Shown here: positions 2,159-18,783 of the stretch, in pieces | Position numbering within the stretch: position 1 is the stretch's first letter | Layout of the letters: every line of letters starts with the position of its first letter | Virus record (IMG/VR): IMGVR_UViG_3300027759_000499 | Coordinates: 1 to 21,180 of that record | Origin: a virus | Length of the DNA: 21,180 bases | Direction: 5' to 3' (one strand) | Translations under genes and position numbers: made by a program | The notes under the pieces: generated by a model | The model's database searches: none | Told to the model about the DNA's origin: nothing | Seen by the model: only the letters and a program-made list of their open reading frames with translations

Positions 2159-2803
2159 GTGAGTAATTCAAGAGTGAAGGAGTTGGAGAGGGAGTTGAGG
2201 GAGGTGGAGGGGAAAATTAAAAGCGGCGCAAATCAATATAGCGGCTTGAATAAGCAGGGAAAGAGAGATGGGAGGTTGCGTGCAATTCGCCCAAACTCTG
2301 TTGAACTACGCGCAGATGCGCTGCCAGTTCCGCACGGCCCGCAGACCATATACCCACCTAGTCACCCTTGCTGGGACATCATCATCAACGGCATCCGTAA
2401 CGGCGGCAGTCTCAGCTTGGTGCTTGAGCGCAACCCTGGCTTTCCAAGCGGCAATTCGGTGCGAGATCGCATTGCCAAAGACCTCGACTTCCAAGCGAAA
2501 TACGAGAAGGCGCTACAAGACCGCGCAGACAGGCTAGCCGAGGAGATACTTGAGATCAGCGATTCAACGCCGCCAGAGGGCTTAGAGCCGGCTGCAATGA
2601 GCGCTTGGGTGGCAGACAAACGGCTGCGCGTTGACGCACGCAAATGGGTGGCCGCGAAGCTGCAACCTAAACGATACGGTGACCGTATTGATGTAGCCGT
2701 GACCGACACGCGCATCAGCGTCATGGATGCGCTGGCCCAGGCGAAGCAGCGCGTACTGAATGACAACAGCGATGTGGTGGATGTCGAGTCGCGGGATGTC
2801 TAA
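2159..2803 (+). CDS. Terminase small subunit-like protein
   Basis: The start is GTG with a good ribosome site, GGAGG at 2147-2151, seven bases upstream. The 214-aa product has a charged N-terminal helix (residues 1-25), a linker, then a helix-turn-helix-like segment around 75-110 (IINGIRNGGSLSLVLERNPGF) that fits DNA recognition. The signature of this small-terminase family follows: YEKALQDRADRLAEEILEI, then RLRVDARKWVAAKLQPKRYGD near 160-180. The subunit recognises the phage packaging site and loads the large subunit. In most phages the large subunit follows directly; here a 419-aa ADP-ribosyltransferase-like gene intervenes. The call rests on the C-terminal motif and synteny and is fairly secure. 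Confidence 0.8.
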   Translation: MSNSRVKELERELREVEGKIKSGANQYSGLNKQGKRDGRLRAIRPNSVELRADALPVPHGPQTIYPPSHPCWDIIINGIRNGGSLSLVLERNPGFPSGNSVRDRIAKDLDFQAKYEKALQDRADRLAEEILEISDSTPPEGLEPAAMSAWVADKRLRVDARKWVAAKLQPKRYGDRIDVAVTDTRISVMDALAQAKQRVLNDNSDVVDVESRDV

Positions 2804-2891
2804 TGTGGACAACGGGTGTTATGTTAACTGCGACGTGAGCACTTACTAACGTCCGGCAGGGGGGGGTGCCCCGCCCGCCCGCCGTGGTCGG

Positions 2892-2961
2892 GGGGCCGGG
2901 TAGGGCCGACGCGAAAGGGCCACGGGAACGGTAGCCCCGCGCCCCTTTTTTTTCTTTTTTT
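2892..2961 (+). terminator. Possible intrinsic terminator after the terminase small subunit gene
   Basis: GGGGCCGGG at 2892-2900 can pair with 2936-2945 as a nine-pair GC stem with one bulged C (2940). The loop is long, about 35 bases, and contains a smaller GGCC/GGCC pairing. The stem is followed at once by eight T, one C and seven T (2946-2961), a strong U-tract. The long loop makes it atypical. Upstream at 2859-2866 there is also a G run of eight. The 175-base gap 2804-2978 holds no gene. Confidence 0.45.
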
Positions 2962-2978
2962 AATTTATCATCTGCCCC

Positions 2979-4238
2979 ATGCCCAAGTACAACCCCACCA
3001 CCTCCGGCAACCCTTACGTCACGGCGTTCCATGACCTCATGGCGACGTCCAAGGACTTTGCCAAGTTCTTGTCTGACTCTGCTGAACGCCAAGGCATCAG
3101 GCAGGGCTTTACAGATGCCGTCAATCGAGGTGCCGTAGCTGCCACCCTTGGTGCGCCGGTGGACATGGCGAACACGGCGCTCAACTTGGGCAAGGCAGCG
3201 GTGGGCTACTTGGGCAACAAGGCTGGCGTCTTGTCGGCCGATCAGATGCCGCAACTAATAGATAACCCAGTTGGCGGGTCTGAGTACATTGGCAACCAGA
3301 TGCGACGGTTTGGCGTGGTCAGTCCCAATCGCAATGCCTTGGCCGAGAGCATTGCTGGCTTCTTGCCCGTCAGCCCATCTACGTCTGGCAAAGCCGTCGC
3401 GGCAATTGCTGGTGGTGGGATGGTGCCAGGGTTGGATTTGGCCGCTACCGTGTTCCACGGCTCGCCGCACAAGTTTGATCGCTTTGACAGCAGCAAGATC
3501 GGCACCGGCGAGGGTGCGCAGGCGTATGGGCATGGGTTGTATTTGGCTGAGTCGCCGGAGGTGGCGAAGTCCTATCGTGAGTCGCTGACAAACCTGTACG
3601 GCACACCCACCACGATTGATGGCGGCGGCAAGTCGGTGCCGATCCCGCTATGGCTTGCCGACAAGATAAAGCAGGGCGGCAGCGTAGACACAGCCATTGC
3701 AGAGTGGACGCAGCGCGCAGCGGAATCGAGGGCCGCGATGAAGTCCAGCCTACAGCCGTGGATTCAAGAGGGAAACGCGGTTAGGTTTGAGGATGAATTG
3801 AGGAATCTGCAAGCAATCAAGGCTGCGGGTGGCGGGAAAGTCGCGGACGCGGGTTCCCTCTACAAAGTCGACCTCCCCGACGAAGCCATAGCCAAGATGC
3901 TGGACTGGGACAAGCCGCTGAGTCAGCAGGCGCCGGCTCTTGAGGCTTTGAGTAAAAACAAAGATTTTGCTCAATATGTTGAGAGAATTATGGAGCGCCC
4001 TTTGTCTGAATTAGACGGCAAAACGCTTCAACGAATGGCAATAGGTTATGCGGCAGACAAAGGGTTAGGCGGCGCATCTGGCGCGGCTGACGTACTTCGC
4101 CAAGCAGGCATCCCCGGCATCCGTTACTTAGACGCAGGCAGTCGCGGTCAAGGGCAGGGCACCAGCAACTACGTCGTCTTTCCCGGTGAGGAAAATATGC
4201 TGCGGATTTTGGAGAGGAATGGGCAGGTGCTCAAGTAA
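2979..4238 (+). CDS. ADP-ribosyltransferase-like protein (ART of phage polyvalent-protein type)
   Basis: This is a 419-aa protein. Residues 1-155 form an Ala/Gly-rich N-terminal region with helical segments (VNRGAVAATLGAPVDMANTAL near 50) of the sort found in virion-associated polyvalent proteins. Residues 158-200 carry the ART core: VFHGSPHKFDRFD with His160, then QAYGHGLYLAESPEVAKSYRE with Tyr188. Residues 290-315 contain LYKVDLPDEAIAKMLDWDKPLS, and the C terminus has AGIPGIRYLDAGSRG and NYVVFPGE. These match the ART domain described in phage polyvalent proteins, which would transfer ADP-ribose from NAD+ to a target. His and Tyr fit the first two positions of an H-Y-x triad; the third position seems not to be the Glu of classical PARP-like enzymes (SNYVVF), so activity is unproven. 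No Shine-Dalgarno sequence precedes the ATG at 2979, nor the next Met at 3039. Its place between terminase genes is unusual. Confidence 0.7.
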   Translation: MPKYNPTTSGNPYVTAFHDLMATSKDFAKFLSDSAERQGIRQGFTDAVNRGAVAATLGAPVDMANTALNLGKAAVGYLGNKAGVLSADQMPQLIDNPVGGSEYIGNQMRRFGVVSPNRNALAESIAGFLPVSPSTSGKAVAAIAGGGMVPGLDLAATVFHGSPHKFDRFDSSKIGTGEGAQAYGHGLYLAESPEVAKSYRESLTNLYGTPTTIDGGGKSVPIPLWLADKIKQGGSVDTAIAEWTQRAAESRAAMKSSLQPWIQEGNAVRFEDELRNLQAIKAAGGGKVADAGSLYKVDLPDEAIAKMLDWDKPLSQQAPALEALSKNKDFAQYVERIMERPLSELDGKTLQRMAIGYAADKGLGGASGAADVLRQAGIPGIRYLDAGSRGQGQGTSNYVVFPGEENMLRILERNGQVLK

Positions 4239-4254
4239 TGCACCCCTATCGGCT

Positions 4255-4259
4255 AGGAG
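4255..4259 (+). promoter_or_regulatory. Ribosome binding site AGGAG that supports a TTG start for terminase
   Basis: AGGAG ends six bases before TTG at 4266. A second site, AGGAGGAG at 4291-4298, lies nine bases before ATG 4308 in the same frame, so a shorter product starting MTTLWSP is also possible. I prefer 4266 because the residues EEEQELM encoded between the two starts look like family sequence. Confidence 0.55.
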
Positions 4260-4265
4260 CTTGAT

Positions 4266-5789
4266 TTGCAATCGACCATCTACAAGCCCGAGGAGGAGCA
4301 AGAGCTCATGACCACCCTGTGGTCACCAGCGATTGCTGATGACCCGGAGGCGTTTGTTTTGTTTGCGTTTCCCTGGGGTCAGGAAAACACCCCGCTGGCG
4401 AACTTCAAGGGGCCACGCAAGTGGCAGCGGGAAGTGTTGCGGGAGATTGCAGCGCACGTTAAGCGGCAGCAGGGGTTGGTGGATTTTGAGACCCTGCGCC
4501 ATGCAGTCAGCTCGGGGCGAGGGATTGGCAAGTCTGCCTTAGTCAGTTGGCTTACCATCTGGATGCTGTCCACCCGCATAGGCTCAACGACCATCATCTC
4601 AGCCAACTCTGAAAGCCAATTGAGAGCAGTCACCTGGGCCGAGATCACCAAGTGGCTGGCGATGAGCATCAACAGCCATTGGTTTGAGGTCAGCGCCACC
4701 AAGCTAGCTCCGGCGTCGTGGTTGACGCAACTGGTGGAGAAGGACTTGCGCAAGGGCACGCGCTACTGGGGTGTTGAGGGTCGGTTGTGGTCGGCTGAGA
4801 ACCCAGATGCTTATGCTGGTGTACACAACTTTGATGGCGTGCTGGTGATCTTTGATGAGGCGTCGGGTATTGACGACTCGATCTGGGCGGTGACGGCTGG
4901 TTTCTTTACCGAAAACACGCCGAATCGTTTGTGGTTGGCGTTCAGCAACCCGCGGCGAAACACGGGGTATTTCTACGAGTGCTTTAACAGCAAGCGGGAT
5001 TTTTGGACGAATAAGGTGGTGGATGCTAGGACGGTGGAGGGCACCGACAAGGCGGTGTACCAGAACATCATTGACGAATACGGCCCCGACAGCAGTCAGG
5101 CGCACGTTGAGGTGTACGGGCAGTTTCCAAGCGAGGGCGATGACCAGTTTATTCCGGCAGACATTGTGGATGATGCGATGGCGCGGGAGAAGTACAAGGA
5201 TCAGACGGCACCAACCATTATTGGGGTTGATCCTGCTCGGTTTGGGGCTGATGCCACGGTGATTGTGGTAAGGCAGGGCCGCGACATTGTGCGTATTGAC
5301 CGGCACCGTGGCGACGACACCATGACCGTGGTGGGGTACATCATTGAGGCCATCGAGGAATGGAAACCCGACATGGTGGTGATTGATGAGGGTGGTCTGG
5401 GTGCGGGTATCGTTGACCGGCTGAAGGAACAACGCTTTAAGATCAAGGGTGTGAACTTTGGCAATAAGTCAGTCAATCCCATCATGTACGGCAACAAACG
5501 CGCCGAAATGTGGGGCAAGATGAAAGAATGGTTGAGGACGGCGAGTATTCCGAAAGATCGTTTCTTGAAAACCGATCTGATTTCGCCTATGATGAAACCG
5601 GACTCGCGGGGTACAATCTTTCTGGAAAGCAAGAAAGAGATGAAATCTCGCGGTCTTGCCTCGCCAGATGCAGCGGATGCGCTGGCTGTGACGTTTGCAT
5701 TTCCGGTGGCGCACCGGGAGTACAAGGAACCAGCGCGGCGGGTTAACGCGCAAGGCAGTAGCGTGAATACATCTTGGATGGGATCATGA
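4266..5789 (+). CDS. Terminase large subunit (packaging ATPase and nuclease)
   Basis: The 507-aa product matches the usual length of large terminases (about 500 in P22). The ATPase half shows a Walker A-like SSGRGIGKS at residues 82-90 and Walker B VLVIFDEAS with Asp197-Glu198. The nuclease half has the RNase H-like acidic set: IIGVDPARFGAD with Asp322, VVIDEGGLGAG with Asp374, and LASPDAADALAVTFAF with Asp468 and Asp471. The enzyme pumps DNA into the prohead through the portal and cuts the concatemer. N-terminal FAFPWGQENTPLANFKGPRKWQREVL is typical of the version found in many proteobacterial podoviruses. The start is a TTG (see the ribosome site entry). The stop overlaps the next gene's ATG. 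Identification is secure; the packaging mode (headful or cohesive ends) cannot be told. Confidence 0.95.
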   Translation: MQSTIYKPEEEQELMTTLWSPAIADDPEAFVLFAFPWGQENTPLANFKGPRKWQREVLREIAAHVKRQQGLVDFETLRHAVSSGRGIGKSALVSWLTIWMLSTRIGSTTIISANSESQLRAVTWAEITKWLAMSINSHWFEVSATKLAPASWLTQLVEKDLRKGTRYWGVEGRLWSAENPDAYAGVHNFDGVLVIFDEASGIDDSIWAVTAGFFTENTPNRLWLAFSNPRRNTGYFYECFNSKRDFWTNKVVDARTVEGTDKAVYQNIIDEYGPDSSQAHVEVYGQFPSEGDDQFIPADIVDDAMAREKYKDQTAPTIIGVDPARFGADATVIVVRQGRDIVRIDRHRGDDTMTVVGYIIEAIEEWKPDMVVIDEGGLGAGIVDRLKEQRFKIKGVNFGNKSVNPIMYGNKRAEMWGKMKEWLRTASIPKDRFLKTDLISPMMKPDSRGTIFLESKKEMKSRGLASPDAADALAVTFAFPVAHREYKEPARRVNAQGSSVNTSWMGS

Positions 5790-6040
5790 AGAAAAGTGTT
5801 TCTCTGTCTGTAGGGCGCGGCGAGAAGTTGCCTGTGAGCAAGGGTGCGGGGCTGACGGAAAAAGGGCGTGAGAAGTACAACGCAGCCACCGGCAGTAACT
5901 TGAAAGCGCCTGCGCCCAATCCTAAGACCGAGGCAGACAAGGGGCGCAAGGCGTCATTTTGTGCCCGCATGGGTGCCGTTGCGGCTAATGCCAAAGACGG
6001 CGAACGTGCCAAGGCGGCGCTTAAACGATGGAAGTGCTGA
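5786..6040 (+). CDS. Small basic phage protein, DUF6321-like (84 aa)
   Basis: The ATG at 5786 overlaps the terminase stop as ATGA, implying translational coupling; an in-frame TTG at 5774 is less likely. The product holds 14 Lys and 6 Arg against 7 acidic residues, about +13 net. The central stretch GLTEKGREKYNAATGSNLKAP followed by SFCARM and a C-terminal ALKRWKC matches what I recall as the phage family DUF6321, whose function is unknown. Two Cys are present, one in SFCARM and one as the last residue. Its charge and its place between terminase and portal are compatible with DNA or head binding, but this is inference. Confidence 0.8.
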   Translation: MKKSVSLSVGRGEKLPVSKGAGLTEKGREKYNAATGSNLKAPAPNPKTEADKGRKASFCARMGAVAANAKDGERAKAALKRWKC

Positions 6041-6041
6041 C

Positions 6042-6203
6042 ATGAAAAAACCCGGTAGCCCTGGCTTGTATGCTGCAATCCACGCAAAGCAAGAGCGCAT
6101 CAAGGCTGGCTCTGGCGAGAAGATGAACAAGCCCGGCAGCAAGGCAGCGCCTAGCGCCAAGGACTTCAAGGACTCGGCCAAGACTGCCAAAAAGGGTAAG
6201 TAA
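6042..6203 (+). CDS. Small basic phage protein of unknown function (53 aa)
   Basis: The ATG at 6042 lies one base after the preceding stop, so the start is set by coupling; the open frame extends further upstream but inside the previous gene. The product MKKPGSPGLYAAIHAKQERI and onward has 13 Lys and 1 Arg against 4 acidic residues, about +10 net. It has a short amphipathic start (GLYAAIHAKQERI), a GSGEKMNKPGSK linker and a Lys-rich tail. I recall close look-alikes in phages next to portal genes, without function. The stop overlaps the next ATG as TAATG. Confidence 0.75.
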   Translation: MKKPGSPGLYAAIHAKQERIKAGSGEKMNKPGSKAAPSAKDFKDSAKTAKKGK

Positions 6204-6334
6204 TGCTGAAGAAATCACCTACACCCAAGGCGTTCAAAGAGAACGTCAAGACTGAAGTCAAGGCCGGCAAGCCCGTCAAGCAGGCCGTGGCGATTGCTTA
6301 CAGCGTCAAGCGCGAAGCGCAAAAGAAGAAATGA
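6203..6334 (+). CDS. 43-aa lysine-rich microprotein, DUF6496-like
   Basis: The ATG shares its A with the TAA of the gene before, and its own stop overlaps the portal ATG as ATGA, so it is locked into the coupled chain of genes. The product begins MLKKSPTPKAFKENVKTEVK and continues with GKPVKQAVAIAYSVKREAQKKK. It has 12 Lys and 1 Arg against 3 Glu, about +10 net. The KAFKENVKTEVKAGKPVKQAVAIAYSVKR pattern, split here as KAFKENVKTEV and KQAVAIAYSVKR, resembles the phage family I know as DUF6496. One helix is likely across AVAIAYSVKREA. Role unknown. Confidence 0.8.
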   Translation: MLKKSPTPKAFKENVKTEVKAGKPVKQAVAIAYSVKREAQKKK

Positions 6335-8499
6335 ACGATAACGGGATTACGGCAGCGAAGGCTGTAGCCAGCGGGAACGAAGACCTACTGTCAACGGCTC
6401 GCAGTCGGTTGGACATGGCTATGTCGGCGCTGTCTGAATCCCGCGAAGACGAGATTGACGATCTGCGGTTCTACGCAGGCAGCCCTGACAATCACTGGCA
6501 ATGGCCGAGTGACGTTTTGGCGACCCGTGGCGCGGTGCAGGGGCAGACGATCAACGCACGCCCGTGCCTGACGATCAACAAGCTGCCGCAGCACGTCCGT
6601 CAGGTCACCAACGACCAGCGCCAGAACCGGCCTGCGGCGAAGGTCATTCCGGTGGACGACAACGCCGACATTGAGGTGGCCGACATCTTCAACGGCATGA
6701 TCCGGCACATTGAATACATCAGCGACGCTGACGTAGCCTACGACACGGCGTGCGAGAACCAGGTGGCGTATGGCGAGGGCTACATCCGACTGCTGACCGA
6801 GTACTGCGACGACAACACGTTTGAGCAGGACATCAAGATCGGGCGGGTGCGTAATTCGTTCTCGGTGTACATGGATCCGATGATCCAAGACCCGACTGGC
6901 GCGGACGCCAAGTATTGCTTTGTCACGCAAGACCTGACCCGCGAGGAGTACGAGCGGATGTACCCTAACGCAGCGCCTGTGACGACGTTGCAATCATTGG
7001 GCGTTGGCGATCAGTCCATCAGCAACTGGCTGAACGAGGACACGATACGAGTCGCTGACTACTATTACATTGACTATGACCGCGCTACGCTGAATTTGTA
7101 CCCAGGCAACCAGACGGCGTTTGCCGGCACGCCGGAAGACAAGCAATTGAAAGCGTTTTTTGGCAAGCCACTACGCTCACGCGAGTCGGACAGGCCGAAA
7201 GTCAAGTATTGCAAGATCAACGGCTACGAGGTTTTGGAACAAAACGATTGGGCCGGGAAGTGTATTCCGGTCATTCGCGTTGTCGGCAACGAATACGAGG
7301 TTGATGGGCGTCTGTATGTGAGCGGTCTAGTGCGAAATGCCAAGGACGCACAACGGATGTACAACTATTGGGTGTCCCAAGAGGCAGAAATGCTGGCTTT
7401 GGCTCCAAAAGCACCGTTTATTGGTTACGGCGGGCAGTTTGAGGGTTACGAAAACCAATGGAAGACCGCCAACACGCAAAATTGGCCGTATTTGGAGGTC
7501 AACCCTGACGTAACTGACGGCCAAGGTGCTATTTTGCCGCTGCCGCAGCGGGCACAACCGCCAATGGCGTCATCTGGTCTGTTGCAGGCCAAGGCTGGTG
7601 CTTCTGAGGACATCAAATCCACCACCGGGCAGTACAACGCATCGTTGGGCATGGGTTCTAACGAGCGTTCTGGCAAGGCTATTTTGGCTCGCCAGCGCGA
7701 GGGTGATGTTGGGACGTATCACTACGGCAATAACTTGGCCCGCAGCGTGCGAAACGTCGCTCGGCAACTGGTGGACTTGATCCCCAAGATTTACGACACG
7801 CAGCGTGTGGCTCGGATCATTGGCGAAGACGGCGATACCAAGATGGTGAGGGTCAACCCTGACCAACAGCAACCTGTCAACAAGATCGTTGACCAATCAG
7901 GCATTGTGATTGAGAAAATCTACAACCTGAGCGTTGGCAAATACGATGTGGTGGCTGTGACCGGCCCCGGCTATGCAACCAAGCGCCAAGAGTCGCTGGA
8001 GGCTATGGGCCAGATGTTGCAAGCCAACCCATCATTGTGGGCTGTGGCTGGCGATTTGTTCGTCAAGAACATGGATTGGCCTGGGGCGCAAGAAATGGCA
8101 AAACGCTTTGCCAAGACCATTGATCCGAAACTGATGGGTGATGGCGAGGACAATCCTGCGCTTGCTGCTGCCCAGCAGCAAATGGAAGCAATGGGGCAGG
8201 AGATGGAGCAGATGCACCAGATGCTGCAAAACGTCGGCAAGTCTATTGAAGTGCAAGATCAAGAGCGCAAGGACTATGAAGCCAAGATCAAGGCGTTTGA
8301 CGCCGAGACCAAGCGCATTTCTGCCGTGCAGGCCGGTATGTCACCAGAGCAGATTCAAGAAATTGTGCTTGGCACGGTTCATGGCATGATTACCAGCGGC
8401 GACTTGATTGCCGAGATGCCGGGTCAGGATGTTGATATGGGGGCCGAAATGCCAATGGAAAACATGGAGCAACAACCACCACAAGGGATGCCACAATGA
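6331..8499 (+). CDS. P22-type portal protein
   Basis: The 722-aa product is nearly the length of the P22 portal (725) and has the family start: a helical N terminus with DEIDDLRFYAGSPDNHWQWP, then RPCLTINKLPQHVRQVTNDQR and NRPAAKVIPV near 85-110. VAYGEGYIRLLTEY (about 150) and SVYMDPMIQDPTGADAKY (about 180) are also typical. KSTTGQYNASLGMGSNERSG near 430 is a hallmark segment of P22-like portals. The last 120 residues turn into a Gln/Met-rich coiled coil (QQQMEAMGQEMEQMHQML) and an acidic Met-rich tail, which would form the C-terminal barrel. Twelve copies should make the ring through which DNA is packaged and ejected. The stop overlaps the next ATG. Confidence 0.95.
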   Translation: MNDNGITAAKAVASGNEDLLSTARSRLDMAMSALSESREDEIDDLRFYAGSPDNHWQWPSDVLATRGAVQGQTINARPCLTINKLPQHVRQVTNDQRQNRPAAKVIPVDDNADIEVADIFNGMIRHIEYISDADVAYDTACENQVAYGEGYIRLLTEYCDDNTFEQDIKIGRVRNSFSVYMDPMIQDPTGADAKYCFVTQDLTREEYERMYPNAAPVTTLQSLGVGDQSISNWLNEDTIRVADYYYIDYDRATLNLYPGNQTAFAGTPEDKQLKAFFGKPLRSRESDRPKVKYCKINGYEVLEQNDWAGKCIPVIRVVGNEYEVDGRLYVSGLVRNAKDAQRMYNYWVSQEAEMLALAPKAPFIGYGGQFEGYENQWKTANTQNWPYLEVNPDVTDGQGAILPLPQRAQPPMASSGLLQAKAGASEDIKSTTGQYNASLGMGSNERSGKAILARQREGDVGTYHYGNNLARSVRNVARQLVDLIPKIYDTQRVARIIGEDGDTKMVRVNPDQQQPVNKIVDQSGIVIEKIYNLSVGKYDVVAVTGPGYATKRQESLEAMGQMLQANPSLWAVAGDLFVKNMDWPGAQEMAKRFAKTIDPKLMGDGEDNPALAAAQQQMEAMGQEMEQMHQMLQNVGKSIEVQDQERKDYEAKIKAFDAETKRISAVQAGMSPEQIQEIVLGTVHGMITSGDLIAEMPGQDVDMGAEMPMENMEQQPPQGMPQ

Positions 8500-8858
8500 C
8501 CGCCGCACAATTTGTTGGTTTGCTGTTTCTTGGGCGCGATGTAGCGCATAGCGTACACCTCAACACTCGCAGTTTCAGCAAGCACATGGCGCTGAACACG
8601 TTCTACAACGAGATTGTGGAACTAGCCGATACGTTTACCGAGGCATACCAAGGTCGGCATGGTTTGGTAGGGCAGATTGTTGTTCCTCCCAACAAAAAAG
8701 CCGCCAACATCATTGAGTTTTTGCAAGCTCAACTCGATGAAATTGAGGCTGTGCGATACGACGTGGTGGACAAAAAAGACACCGCTTTGCACAATTTGAT
8801 TGACGAAATTGTGGCGTTGTACTTGTCTACCTTGTACAAACTGAGGTTTTTGGCATAA
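8496..8858 (+). CDS. Dps/ferritin-like four-helix protein, DUF5856-like (120 aa)
   Basis: The ATG at 8496 overlaps the portal stop (ATGA). The product is predicted all-helical with four segments: about 3-25, 30-52, 68-90 and 94-118. Helix A carries His18 and His21; then come His30, Glu42, Asp45 and Glu49. The set His18, His30, Asp45, Glu49 has spacings 12, 15 and 4, the same as the ferroxidase residues His51, His63, Asp78 and Glu82 of E. coli Dps; the fifth Dps ligand, Asp67, would fall on Asn34. I recall this phage family as DUF5856, without a proven function. At 120 aa it is shorter than Dps (about 167). It could bind iron or be a head-associated mini-ferritin, but iron binding is inferred from spacing only. 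It sits between portal and head-fibre-like genes. Confidence 0.7.
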   Translation: MTAAQFVGLLFLGRDVAHSVHLNTRSFSKHMALNTFYNEIVELADTFTEAYQGRHGLVGQIVVPPNKKAANIIEFLQAQLDEIEAVRYDVVDKKDTALHNLIDEIVALYLSTLYKLRFLA

Positions 8859-10427
8859 ATGGCACTTTACGCAGATCGTGTAAAAGATAGTACCTCACTT
8901 ACGGGTACTGGTGCAGTCACTTTGAGTGGTACTGCGCCAACTGGTTTTCAATCTTTTGCCACGGCGTTTGGTGCTAGTCCTGTTACGGTTGCATACTGTA
9001 TTGCCGACCAGACGGGGAACAATTGGGAAGTTGGCACAGGCGTGTTTAACGGCACAACTGGTTTGACTCGCGTTACTGTTCTTGGGTCAAGCAACGGCGG
9101 TTCGTTGGTCAACTTTACTGGCGGCACGCAGGATGTGTTTTGTACCATTCCGGCCAACTACATTAATACACCTGTTGCACAAGCACAACTACTGGGATTT
9201 ACCTCTACTTTAACCACTGCTGCACTTAGTATAACAGGTGCATCTGGTGCTAGTGGTACAGCAACCCTAACTTTTGCATTGCAGGGGTCTGCACCCTATG
9301 CTATTAATTCATATATAGTTGTTGCCGGTGTAGGAAATACGGGCTATAACGGCCTTTACCAAGTAACAGCTTGTACAACTACATCTGTTTCTTATCTTAA
9401 TGCAACAACAGCTGCATCTTCCGGGGGTACAGTTGTTGCACCCGTATTATTAACAAAAGACAGCAGTGTTTACCAATTAATTGCAGCTACTAGCACCCAG
9501 AGTGCCTTTGTTTTACCAGATGTTACAACACTTCAACCGGGTTGGTTATTTAAAATAATAAATGGAACATCAAACTCGGTGCTAATGCAGGTCTATACAT
9601 TTGGGGGCACAAATATTGTTAGTGCTCAGCAAAATACAGGATACAATTTTACTTGTATTAGTGCTTCAGCTAATGATGCTACTGGTTGGAGATTGGGTGT
9701 TAGTGAAGTATACTCAGGTGTTTCAGGAACTCAGACCACAGGCTCTGGATCTATGGTTCTGTCTGTTAGTCCAACAATTACTGGTACAATGAGTTTTACC
9801 GGCACTAGTACCTCAAACGCATTTTTTGGTACCGCACAAACAACAGGCCAGATGCAAATTGGTGGTACTGGGCAAACAGGTTTGATAAGACTAGGTCAAT
9901 CAACAGCCTCGCAACCCATCCAAATTGGCTCCGGCGTAACTACTACTGCGACCACTGCGTCTGGTACAGCAAGTTCAATTTCTTCTACTACACTCACAGT
10001 AGGCGGCACTGTAACAGGAACATTCTCTATTGGTATGACACTGTCTGGTACCAACGTATTGCCAGGCACTTATATTACCGCAGGTTCGGGTACTAGTTGG
10101 ACTGTTAACCAAACCCAAACCGTTACGTCTACCACTATCACAGGCACAACTCAAAAGTCTATTGATATCGGAATCAATGGTGCTTCTGGATCTATAACAG
10201 CTATCACACTTGGTTCAGCCACTACTGGTGCTACGTCTACAATTACTGTAAATGGAACGCTAAGACTAAAAGGGTATACAGTGAGTACATTGCCTGCTGC
10301 TGGTATTGCTGGTAGAATAGCATATGTTACTGATGCAACAGCTCCGAGTTATAATGATACTTTAACCGGCGGTGGAACAACAACAATCCCAGTTTTTGAT
10401 AACGGAACTGCTTGGACAGCTCACTAA
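8859..10427 (+). CDS. Head- or tail-fibre-like protein with modular, AT-rich interior
   Basis: The ATG follows the preceding TAA without a gap. Residues 1-105 (MALYADRVKDSTSLTGTG, with GFQSFATAFG, NWEVGTGVFNG and VFCTIPANYI) match an N-terminal module I know from virion fibre proteins of many phages. The middle, about residues 110-465, is low-complexity Thr/Ser/Gly-rich sequence expected to form beta structure. The last 55 residues (LRLKGYTVSTLPAAG, AYVTDATAPSYNDTLTGGGT, VFDNGTAW) are a common fibre C-terminal cap. From about 9180 the DNA is much more AT-rich than its surroundings (19 of 60 bases are G or C in 9541-9600, against 39 of 60 in 6541-6600), suggesting acquisition from another phage. 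Placement among head genes favours a head fibre, but a tail role is not excluded. Confidence 0.7.
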   Translation: MALYADRVKDSTSLTGTGAVTLSGTAPTGFQSFATAFGASPVTVAYCIADQTGNNWEVGTGVFNGTTGLTRVTVLGSSNGGSLVNFTGGTQDVFCTIPANYINTPVAQAQLLGFTSTLTTAALSITGASGASGTATLTFALQGSAPYAINSYIVVAGVGNTGYNGLYQVTACTTTSVSYLNATTAASSGGTVVAPVLLTKDSSVYQLIAATSTQSAFVLPDVTTLQPGWLFKIINGTSNSVLMQVYTFGGTNIVSAQQNTGYNFTCISASANDATGWRLGVSEVYSGVSGTQTTGSGSMVLSVSPTITGTMSFTGTSTSNAFFGTAQTTGQMQIGGTGQTGLIRLGQSTASQPIQIGSGVTTTATTASGTASSISSTTLTVGGTVTGTFSIGMTLSGTNVLPGTYITAGSGTSWTVNQTQTVTSTTITGTTQKSIDIGINGASGSITAITLGSATTGATSTITVNGTLRLKGYTVSTLPAAGIAGRIAYVTDATAPSYNDTLTGGGTTTIPVFDNGTAWTAH

Positions 10428-17172: not shown

Positions 17173-17803
17173 CAATCTTACCCAAATCCCTGCTATTCGA
17201 GTGCCTATCATTGACAGCCAAACCGGGTTGATGTCTCGGGAGTGGTATCGGTTTTTTGTCAATTTGTTTGATTTGACGGGCGAGGGGTCAAACGTTACAT
17301 CTTTGGCTGATTTGCAAGTTGGGCCACCGACCGACACGGCGGTGCAGATTGGTGTTCCATACACCGACCTGTCGCCACGCGACGAACTGGGCACGCTAGC
17401 GTCAAAAAACAGCGTTAGTTTGACGACTGATGTCAGCGGCGTTTTGCCAACGGCTAACGGCGGCGCTAACGCTACTGCTGTTGCTACAGATAGTGTTACG
17501 TCACCACTTGCGTGGAACAGTTCATCCTATTCCCAGTACGCTCTGACTGCGTTGGCAAATGCGTTGACAATCAACGCAGACGAAAACGCCGCGCCGGTAG
17601 ACGGTCAAAAAATGACGTTTCGGCTGAAGGACAACGGCACTGCTAGAGCGTTGACATGGACAACTGGTTCTGCCAAATCATTTCAAGTGATTGGCACGAC
17701 GCTTCCAACAACCACTGTTGCAAATAAAACTGTGTACGTTGGTTGCAGTTATAACGCCGCTGACTCTCGTTGGGATGTACTTGCTGTTGGGCAAGAAGTC
17801 TAA
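17165..17803 (+). CDS. Fibre-base or tail protein of unknown function (212 aa)
   Basis: It takes the slot held by the tail needle (gp26) in P22, but its sequence does not show the long coiled coil of a needle. Residues 1-50 (LTQIPAIRVPIIDSQTGLMS, REWYRFFVNLFDLTGEGSN) are a common N-terminal piece of podovirus proteins after gp10. The middle has a VLPTANGGANAT linker that recurs in fibres. Residues 120-212 form a beta module (ALTINADENAAPVDGQKMTF, LKDNGTARALTW, TTVANKTVYVGCSYNAADSR) found at the ends of many phage fibre-like proteins. It is probably a virion tail component. Its stop overlaps the ATG of the glycine-rich gene. Confidence 0.65.
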   Translation: MANNLTQIPAIRVPIIDSQTGLMSREWYRFFVNLFDLTGEGSNVTSLADLQVGPPTDTAVQIGVPYTDLSPRDELGTLASKNSVSLTTDVSGVLPTANGGANATAVATDSVTSPLAWNSSSYSQYALTALANALTINADENAAPVDGQKMTFRLKDNGTARALTWTTGSAKSFQVIGTTLPTTTVANKTVYVGCSYNAADSRWDVLAVGQEV

Positions 17804-18783
17804 TGGCTCAGACCGTTACAACCCTTGCCAATGGCGACAAACAGATCGTCATTACAGGCACAGAAACGTGGACTTTCCCGTCTGATTGGAATGATGCTGC
17901 CAACAAGCTAGAGGCGTATGGCCGTGGCGGTAATGGCGCAACAGGAACTGCAAGTGTCAGCGGCGGTGGCGGCGGCAGTGGTTCATATCAAAAAGTATTA
18001 AATTTTCCGTTAAAGCTATATTCCCAAACGCCAAACCCGATTGACGGTCAGTTTGCAGTATTGCTTTCTACTGTTGATACGGAGTCAACTACACAGTATA
18101 CGTTTTTCCTTGTTTACGCAGGCGATGATGGATTGAGTCCTCCCTCGCCTGTTTACAGTCGAGGAATAGGGGCCGGTGCGGGGCAAAACGCATCGGGTAA
18201 CTTTGGCGGGAATGGGGCGGGTGACCCCTCGTACAACATTGATGTTGCCGTTACTGCAACTACTCCCAGCGCCAGTTATACAACCACTCACTTTGGCGGC
18301 AGTGCTGGCGGGGATGGTAGAATATCAACTACAGCCGCTGGTGGCGGCGGCGCTGGCGCAGCAGGCCCAAACGGTGCTGGCGGCGCAGGTGGAACAAACA
18401 CCGCAACTCTTGGCACTACTGGCCGAGGCGGTGGCGGCGGTAACGGTGGCACAGCAGGATCAAATACCTCCGCAACAGGTGGCACAGCAGGAACTGGTGC
18501 GGGCGCTGGCGGTGCTGGTGGAGCAGCAAGCACATCAGGCAGCGCAGGCGGTGCTGGCACTAACGCCGCCACAACTTATATATTTTCTGGTGGTGGCGGT
18601 GGCGGTGCTGGTGACGGTACAGGTACTACGGTTGGTGGTGCTGGTGGCTTGTACGGTGCTGGCGGTGGCGGCGGCGCTTCGTCTACAATTTCAACGCAAG
18701 GCTTAGGTTCAAGCGGCGCATTGGTGATTACCTATACGCCAGTGGTTACAGCTACAAGCAGCAATTTTTTCTTGCTGTTTTAA
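17803..18783 (+). CDS. Glycine-rich adhesin-like tail protein
   Basis: I chose ATG 17803, which overlaps the previous stop; an in-frame ATG at 17770 lies inside the preceding gene. The N terminus (residues 1-45) has ITGTETWTFPSDWNDAANKLEAYGRGG, seen as ETWTFPSDWND and KLEAYGRGG, a module that often opens glycine-rich fibre proteins. Residues about 45-310 hold many Gly runs (GGGGGSGS, GGGGAGAAGPNGAGGAGG, GGGGNGGTAG, GGGGGGAGDG), as in the polyglycine-helix tips of T-even gp38-like adhesins. A single non-glycine insert lies at about 60-110 (YQKVLNFPLKLYSQTPNPID and following). The end LGSSGALVITYTPVV closes the fold, followed by a hydrophobic FFLLF. Likely role: host-surface binding. Confidence 0.7.
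   Translation: MAQTVTTLANGDKQIVITGTETWTFPSDWNDAANKLEAYGRGGNGATGTASVSGGGGGSGSYQKVLNFPLKLYSQTPNPIDGQFAVLLSTVDTESTTQYTFFLVYAGDDGLSPPSPVYSRGIGAGAGQNASGNFGGNGAGDPSYNIDVAVTATTPSASYTTTHFGGSAGGDGRISTTAAGGGGAGAAGPNGAGGAGGTNTATLGTTGRGGGGGNGGTAGSNTSATGGTAGTGAGAGGAGGAASTSGSAGGAGTNAATTYIFSGGGGGGAGDGTGTTVGGAGGLYGAGGGGGASSTISTQGLGSSGALVITYTPVVTATSSNFFLLF

Follow-up and report, generated by a model that had tools for sequence, protein, structure and literature searches.

A predicted ADP-ribosyltransferase in an exchange slot between the terminase genes of a P22-like podovirus

Organization of the locus

The stretch analysed here, called the window, is a virus record of 21,180 bases that covers the late region of a P22-like podovirus, with a P22-like portal (PF16510, 1.3e-176) and a P22-like coat protein (PF11651, 1.6e-44) both recognized by Pfam. 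The gene under study is an open reading frame (ORF) at 2979..4238 on the plus strand, which starts with ATG, encodes 419 residues and is located between the genes for the small (TerS) and large (TerL) subunits of terminase. A first-pass annotation had already placed it there, and the matches of the neighbouring genes to PF20901, phrog_1482 and phrog_2 confirm the placement. In 200 shuffled windows of the same composition, the longest stop-free run had a mean of 164 codons and a maximum of 268 codons; therefore, the ORF exceeds the length expected by chance. The features of the locus are as follows.

2159..2803, plus strand: TerS, terminase small subunit (Sf6_terminase PF20901, 5e-24; phrog_1482, 3.8e-28)
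2804..2978, plus strand: 5′ noncoding stretch with a conserved GC-rich element, TAGGGCCGACGCGAAAGGGCCACGGGAACGGTAG, then an AT-rich tract (alignment with L001, L002, L003 and L172)
2979..3434, plus strand: leader, residues 1–152, type A, mostly helical (74–90% identity with L001, L002, L003 and L172; AlphaFold2 secondary structure)
3435..4238, plus strand: predicted ADP-ribosyltransferase (ART) domain of the ART-PolyVal type, residues 153–419 (Pfam PF18760; BFVD fold match)
3456..3458, plus strand: codon for the first catalytic residue, His160, in strand 1 (His in 89/89)
3540..3542, plus strand: codon for the second catalytic residue, Tyr188, in strand 2 (Tyr in 89/89)
3591..3833, plus strand: hypervariable insert, residues ~205–285, between catalytic strands 2 and 3 (identity bins)
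3936..4088, plus strand: second hypervariable stretch, residues ~320–370 (identity bins)
4191..4193, plus strand: codon for Glu405, located behind strand 5 and a candidate for the third catalytic residue (Glu in 82 and Asp in 4 of 89, counts inflated as explained below)
4239..4265, plus strand: 27-nt spacer with a Shine-Dalgarno-like AGGAG (4255–4259) for TerL (sequence)
4266..5789, plus strand: TerL, terminase large subunit, TTG start (phrog_2, 2.3e-43)

The GC-rich element and a T-rich tract at 2880–2960 lie just upstream of the cargo start and are kept in filled and empty sites alike; in relatives with an empty slot (compared sites L102–L118), an element matching that of the window is found directly 5′ of TerL. 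The start codon of the cargo gene has no evident Shine-Dalgarno sequence, and the 5′ gap of the window cargo gene gave no match in Rfam. DnaA-box-like 9-mers (TTATCCACA and variants) occur as clusters of two or three between TerS and the next gene, cargo or TerL, in L102, L106, L112, L118 and L100, where about 0.02 are expected per gap, and they adjoin the GC-rich element and the AT-rich tract. This arrangement might mark a replication origin or a packaging site. Strict DnaA-like boxes are absent from the window, in which the GC-rich element is kept.

Several other features of the late region stand out. Just behind the portal, 8496–8858 encodes a 120-residue protein that matches phrog_858, 'starvation-inducible transcriptional regulator' (3.6e-25), and is 78–82% identical in relatives. 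The gap between TerL and portal (5790–6330) varies among relatives from an overlap (L003) to more than 1.5 kb (L138), and is a possible second insertion site. Two proteins among the structural genes, a long Thr/Ser/Gly-rich one (8859–10427) and a Gly-rich one (17770–18783), fall into no PHROG family.

Identity of the ADP-ribosyltransferase domain

The ART signature described by the first-pass annotation is present with correct residue numbers: VFHGSPHKFDRFD with His160, GHGLYLAES with Tyr188, GIPGIRYLD and NYVVF. The Pfam match of the window protein to ART-PolyVal (PF18760) is weak when taken alone (24.6 bits, E 4.6e-5, below the cut-off of 31.2) and covers residues 157–204 only. However, 47 of 49 aligned members, one of which is the leader of L172 alone, match the same profile at E ≤ 0.01, the best at 1.3e-9, which makes the assignment firm. 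One effector domain is recognized in the window protein, whereas a multidomain polyvalent protein would carry two or more. Searches of NCBIfam and PADLOC returned nothing useful, apart from one PADLOC match at E 0.009 over the ART motif region, and PDB sequence searches with the protein and with profile A2 gave nothing relevant.

A scan of viral contigs with search words retrieved 293 relatives, 80 of which were kept. In the family alignment of 89 sequences, His160 and Tyr188 are invariant (89/89 each), and neither lies inside a search word; they are located in the predicted strands 156–162 and 187–190, respectively. The third catalytic residue of the ART-PolyVal family, after the His and the Tyr, is an Asp in strand 5 (PMC5512222). 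In the window protein this place, after VVF, is occupied by Pro402, and Pro is found there in 82 of the 89 sequences. The first-pass remark that the third position does not look like Glu therefore holds for the canonical place, but it overlooks Glu405 just behind strand 5, which is Glu in 82 and Asp in 4 of the 89 sequences, figures that are inflated since Glu405 lies within the search word VFPGEENM. Judging from the alignment, Glu405 is probably the best candidate for the third catalytic residue, which would give an H-Y-E set. The homologue of Sulfitobacter phage phiGT1 keeps Asp at the third position (VVFDD).

An AlphaFold2 model was built on the family alignment with the phiGT1 row left out, and has a mean confidence of 75 and a pTM of 0.53 for the whole protein. 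The ART core is predicted confidently, with nearly all ten-residue blocks from residue 290 on scoring 85–95, and the predicted strands are 156–162, 187–190, 293–299, 380–384, 396–400 and 409–413. When the model was compared by Foldseek with the BFVD viral models, the best matches were named ART-PolyVal-like (E 4.5e-20 and 4.9e-18), so that the predicted structure bears out an ART fold. In the PDB fold search the list is led by H-Y-E ARTs (exotoxin A, cholix and relatives), with a RES toxin further down, but no match is significant (E 0.18 or worse), so that this search lends the ART fold weak support. Evidence from family, fold and catalytic residues thus supports residues ~155–419 as an ART-PolyVal-type domain, a variant with a changed third position for which ADP-ribosylation is the predicted activity.

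A conserved leader in front of a variable domain

The four nearest phages (L001, L002, L003, which is the same as L171, and L172) have TerL 97–99% and TerS 75–82% identical to those of the window. The leader, the first 152 residues, shares 90% (L001), 89% (L002), 84% (L003) and 74% (L172) identity with that of the window, and no other long stretch of the protein is as well conserved in close relatives. The rest of the protein is an ART at 53%, 49% and 40% identity in L001, L002 and L003, respectively. In L172 it is not an ART: the type-A leader is followed by LPD23 (PF18838, 2.6e-12), a metallopeptidase-like HELQH stretch with a weak match to DUF6782 (2.6e-4), and a further domain, D_GRSGF (D_GRSGF and D_TTANM are the names given here to two unknown cargo domains). 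In L001 a ParB_N-like domain, below the cut-off (1.3e-4), follows the ART.

Within the ART, identity is distributed very unevenly. In 30-residue bins of the window against L001–L003, residues 151–180 are 97–100% identical and the C-terminal bin 83–90%, whereas residues 211–270 fall to 10–27% and residues 331–360 to 7–23%. The leader model has low confidence at its ends. Up to E 0.1 in Pfam, the window protein has no match to MuF, nor was a secretion domain found in it, and the leader contains no recognized packaging domain. The Ala/Gly-rich character given to the N-terminal region in the first-pass annotation is there in mild form (27% A+G vs 24% in the rest). A DPRRxQ motif shared by leaders and an ejection-region protein of a relative was followed by a regex scan, gave no convincing link and was dropped.

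Exchange of cargo between TerS and TerL

The slot was surveyed by a scan with TerL, blind to cargo, which yielded 80 phages. Among the more similar of these loci with TerS and TerL both in view, about 17 have a large cargo ORF (340–800 residues) and about 14 are empty, holding just a gap of ~350 nt. Over 83 distinct TerLs, 15 slots have no cargo and each of the others contains a single ORF, in most cases a leader of one of three types (A, that of the window, B and C) joined to a cargo. The C-terminal types are the window-type ART, other ART-PolyVal-like domains, LPD23, D_GRSGF and D_TTANM. The junctions are sharp: L100 and L101 are 99% identical over their shared 120 residues and then differ, and L122 and L124 are 95% identical over their shared 150 residues and then differ. 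The window-type ART is also found behind leader B (L075, L210 and L233), which indicates that leader and effector recombine. The slot hence shows the constant N-terminus with exchangeable C-termini by which polymorphic toxin systems are recognized. A further insertion is seen in L091, where a 155-residue ORF resembling an HNH homing endonuclease by eye lies between TerS and the cargo gene (L091:2041-2508).

On a tree of the 83 TerLs with eight cargo states, 41 cargo changes are required, compared with a least possible number of 7 and a mean of 50 after shuffling; none of 200 shuffles needed as few. Cargo thus follows phage ancestry just slightly and has been swapped independently many times, although many branches of the tree are poorly supported and several loci share a contig or are close relatives. 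The share of empty slots in the tree is not a frequency, since the leader-B and D_GRSGF scans favour filled slots. In the clade of the window, seven near-identical TerLs are accompanied by four cargo types: the window-type ART, another ART, LPD23 with D_GRSGF, and D_GRSGF.

This exchange bears directly on whether the ART modifies the packaging motor (TerL or TerS) or the portal, a role also raised in the first-pass annotation, for which the position between the terminase genes is the only argument. Many relatives have nothing in the slot, others carry unrelated domains there next to a TerL that has hardly changed, and in other phages the same ART is found at different positions: between the portal and scaffold genes, after gp10 or as part of a giant protein. 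Since the content of the slot is exchangeable while TerL stays the same, we regard such a role as very improbable.

Convergent partner genes of other cargoes

The spacing between cargo and TerL depends on the cargo. It is 218–219 nt for D_GRSGF and 203–205 nt for D_TTANM, but 3–4 nt for most ART and LPD23 cargoes, and the 27-nt spacer of the window leaves no room for a small gene. Each longer spacer contains a gene for a small protein of about 60–70 residues on the opposite strand, which ends at or just inside the end of the cargo gene. The features concerned are the following.

L107:1056-2030: D_GRSGF domain, about 325 residues, the commonest cargo in the fetched set
L107:2031-2250 and equivalents, convergent: partner gene of D_GRSGF
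L096:2704-2908 and equivalents, convergent: partner gene of D_TTANM

The small proteins of the two cargoes show no resemblance, and each is found strictly with its own cargo type. In viral contigs the partner is present in 97/97 D_GRSGF loci with room for it and in 18/18 D_TTANM loci, and a small gene lacking its cargo was found in none. Phage C72C1 has a D_TTANM-type protein at 27% identity without the small gene. The median dN/dS of the coding frame is 0.16 for the D_GRSGF partner and 0.05 for the D_TTANM partner; of the five other frames, four have values close to 1 or higher, and the remaining one, on the plus strand, is at 0.26 and 0.15. The low value in the coding frame, a sign of purifying selection, argues that the small ORFs are real genes. 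ART and most LPD23 cargoes have no linked small gene.

D_GRSGF and D_TTANM are distantly similar (about 20% identity). D_GRSGF is predicted with a pLDDT of 87 and a pTM of 0.85, has no match in Pfam and gave no meaningful match in the PDB fold search (best E 0.12). The obvious reading of the small genes, from their arrangement and association, is that they are candidate immunity or antitoxin genes, and with such cognate partners the D_GRSGF and D_TTANM cargoes are probably harmful to the producing cell. The first-pass interpretation of the locus was partly right but too narrow. What the window alone could not reveal is that the slot is a hotspot of exchange behind a constant leader, and that other cargoes in it come with cognate small genes.

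Placement of homologues elsewhere

For 52 of the 80 homologous ART loci, a recognized terminase, portal, scaffold, coat, tail or ejection gene lies in the fetched stretch. In one large group, about 300 nt separate the ART from a different TerL downstream of it, which the portal follows; the order is TerL-ART-portal in L005, L036 and L054, and portal-gene 4-ART-scaffold in phiGT1. Some homologous ARTs lie behind gp10 or are embedded in proteins of 1,300–3,100 residues. Most fetched homologues are 300–450 residues long, so the first-pass view that such ARTs are usually parts of huge polyvalent proteins does not apply to this subfamily. In a Manatee Spring phage (MW202710), a protein that joins leader B to an LPD23-type cargo adjoins terminase. 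One relative of the window phage, with a record of 35.6 kb and a TerL at 98% identity, carries its own DNA-ejection gene (phrog_598, 3.2e-37) and a different cargo. No tyrosine integrase (PF00589) was detected in this 35.6-kb relative or in the records of L257 and L005, although the records may be incomplete.

Discussion

We propose that the gene is the cargo of an exchangeable leader–effector locus in P22-like podoviruses and that its product is an ART delivered in the virion to act on the host, a reading to which we give a probability of slightly under 0.6. The common leader of ~150 residues would recruit the protein to the virion, and the effector domain would enter the next host together with the phage DNA, where the ART would ADP-ribosylate a host macromolecule. 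The hypervariable inserts between the catalytic strands may set the target and change under host pressure. The data establish the identity of the domain, the exchange of modules, the placement and the association with partner genes; beyond these, delivery, target and toxicity are inferred. Location among the packaging genes, a constant leader and the precedents of T4 Alt, N4-type virion RNA polymerase and polyvalent proteins together favour a virion-borne effector (for virion-borne ARTs and polyvalent proteins, see PMC5512222 and PMC9503650), and an injected, host-directed effector is the most likely role. Against this stand a leader with no recognized packaging domain, an ART with no linked immunity gene and the Pro in place of the strand-5 Asp. 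Late expression, as judged from gene position, would also fit a protein that does its work inside the producing cell as the cycle ends.

In a second explanation, the locus would encode a polymorphic toxin for competition. The protein would be made late and act on neighbouring cells or co-infecting genomes through release at lysis or superinfection exclusion, with the small proteins protecting the producer and virion loading unneeded. A constant N-terminus, swapped C-termini and small genes tied to cargo type are indeed the hallmark of toxin–immunity systems (PMC5576092, PMC11699363). However, the small gene is missing for ART and most LPD23 cargoes, Pfam finds neither a secretion nor a MuF domain, and the 35.6-kb relative shows no tyrosine integrase, so the classic setting of competition between lysogens is not supported. 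We consider this explanation unlikely, though it deserves serious attention.

Counter-defence appears improbable as the main role. Here the ART and the other cargoes, injected or made early, would neutralize anti-phage systems of the host, and cargo turnover would track defence repertoires. The fast turnover of cargo on near-identical phage backbones agrees with this, as do the proposals that domains of polyvalent proteins act at the start of infection (PMC5512222) and that ARTs near portal and terminase genes may counter immunity aimed at packaging parts (PMC9503650), but the cognate convergent small genes are left unexplained. That the gene is a moron, a passenger with no role in infection that is tolerated in the slot, would suit the many relatives lacking a cargo (about 14 empty vs 17 filled TerL-selected loci with TerS in view), but is scarcely credible given invariant catalytic residues, a conserved leader and the purifying selection that acts on small genes accompanying other cargoes.

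Among known systems, the best reading is that the locus resembles the MuF polymorphic toxins (Jamet et al. 2017, PMC5576092; Bxa of Bacteroides stercoris, PMC11699363) in its working but with a leader that is not MuF. Both combine one N-terminal phage module with exchangeable C-terminal effectors, ARTs among them, in the packaging region, and both have small putative immunity genes. In contrast to MuF toxins, the leader here is non-MuF by Pfam, the slot lies between TerS and TerL rather than just behind the portal, the small genes converge on the cargo gene rather than following it on the same strand and accompany only some cargoes, and the near relative shows no tyrosine integrase. The ART shares its fold, H-Y motif and phage late-gene context with ART-PolyVal (PF18760; Tox-ART-HYD2 clade; Iyer et al. 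2017, PMC5512222), but the proteins here are mostly leader–ART proteins of 300–450 residues and not giant multidomain ones, Pro stands in for the strand-5 Asp and a Glu follows behind it, and large hypervariable inserts are present. T4 Alt is likewise a phage ART and a model for ART action at the start of infection; it belongs to the R-S-E clade and is known to be packaged and injected (PMC5512222), whereas the present protein belongs to the H-Y clade and its packaging is presumptive. Gene 5 of phiGT1 (QLB38217) encodes a similar leader–ART protein of 387 residues in the head module, with 32% identity over residues 130–415, but lies between portal and scaffold and has an Asp behind VVF (H-Y-D). 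Virion mass spectrometry of phiGT1 has been reported, in a paper whose main text does not name gene 5 (PMC10386132).

The occurrence of ARTs near terminase and portal genes has been noted in general (PMC9503650), and the logic of constant and variable parts is already present in MuF polymorphic toxins (PMC5576092, PMC11699363). In the open-access literature we found no description of an effector between TerS and TerL, nor of the non-MuF leader family, the TerS–TerL exchange slot and the type-specific convergent partner genes. We tentatively entertain a wider idea, possible but on the doubtful side: a non-MuF leader would load interchangeable effectors (ARTs, LPD23/peptidase and unknown folds) into the virion, the locus would sit next to terminase in several phage groups that are not related, and convergent immunity genes would protect the infected cell. 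Together these would constitute an undescribed family of polymorphic effector–immunity systems in phages. If true, this would mean warfare of phage against phage or phage against host by virion cargo, in phages with no detected integrase. The range of cargoes suggests a phage arsenal against bacteria or rival phages.

If the leader is a virion-loading signal, it would be a portable tag, and a short-tailed phage would deliver any domain placed behind it; the natural cargo library would then reveal the activities that are of benefit during infection. A further use of the locus is as a cheap route to new effectors and their partner proteins, such as D_GRSGF with its ever-present partner gene, and the locus makes testable whether small phages carry injected effectors directed at the host.
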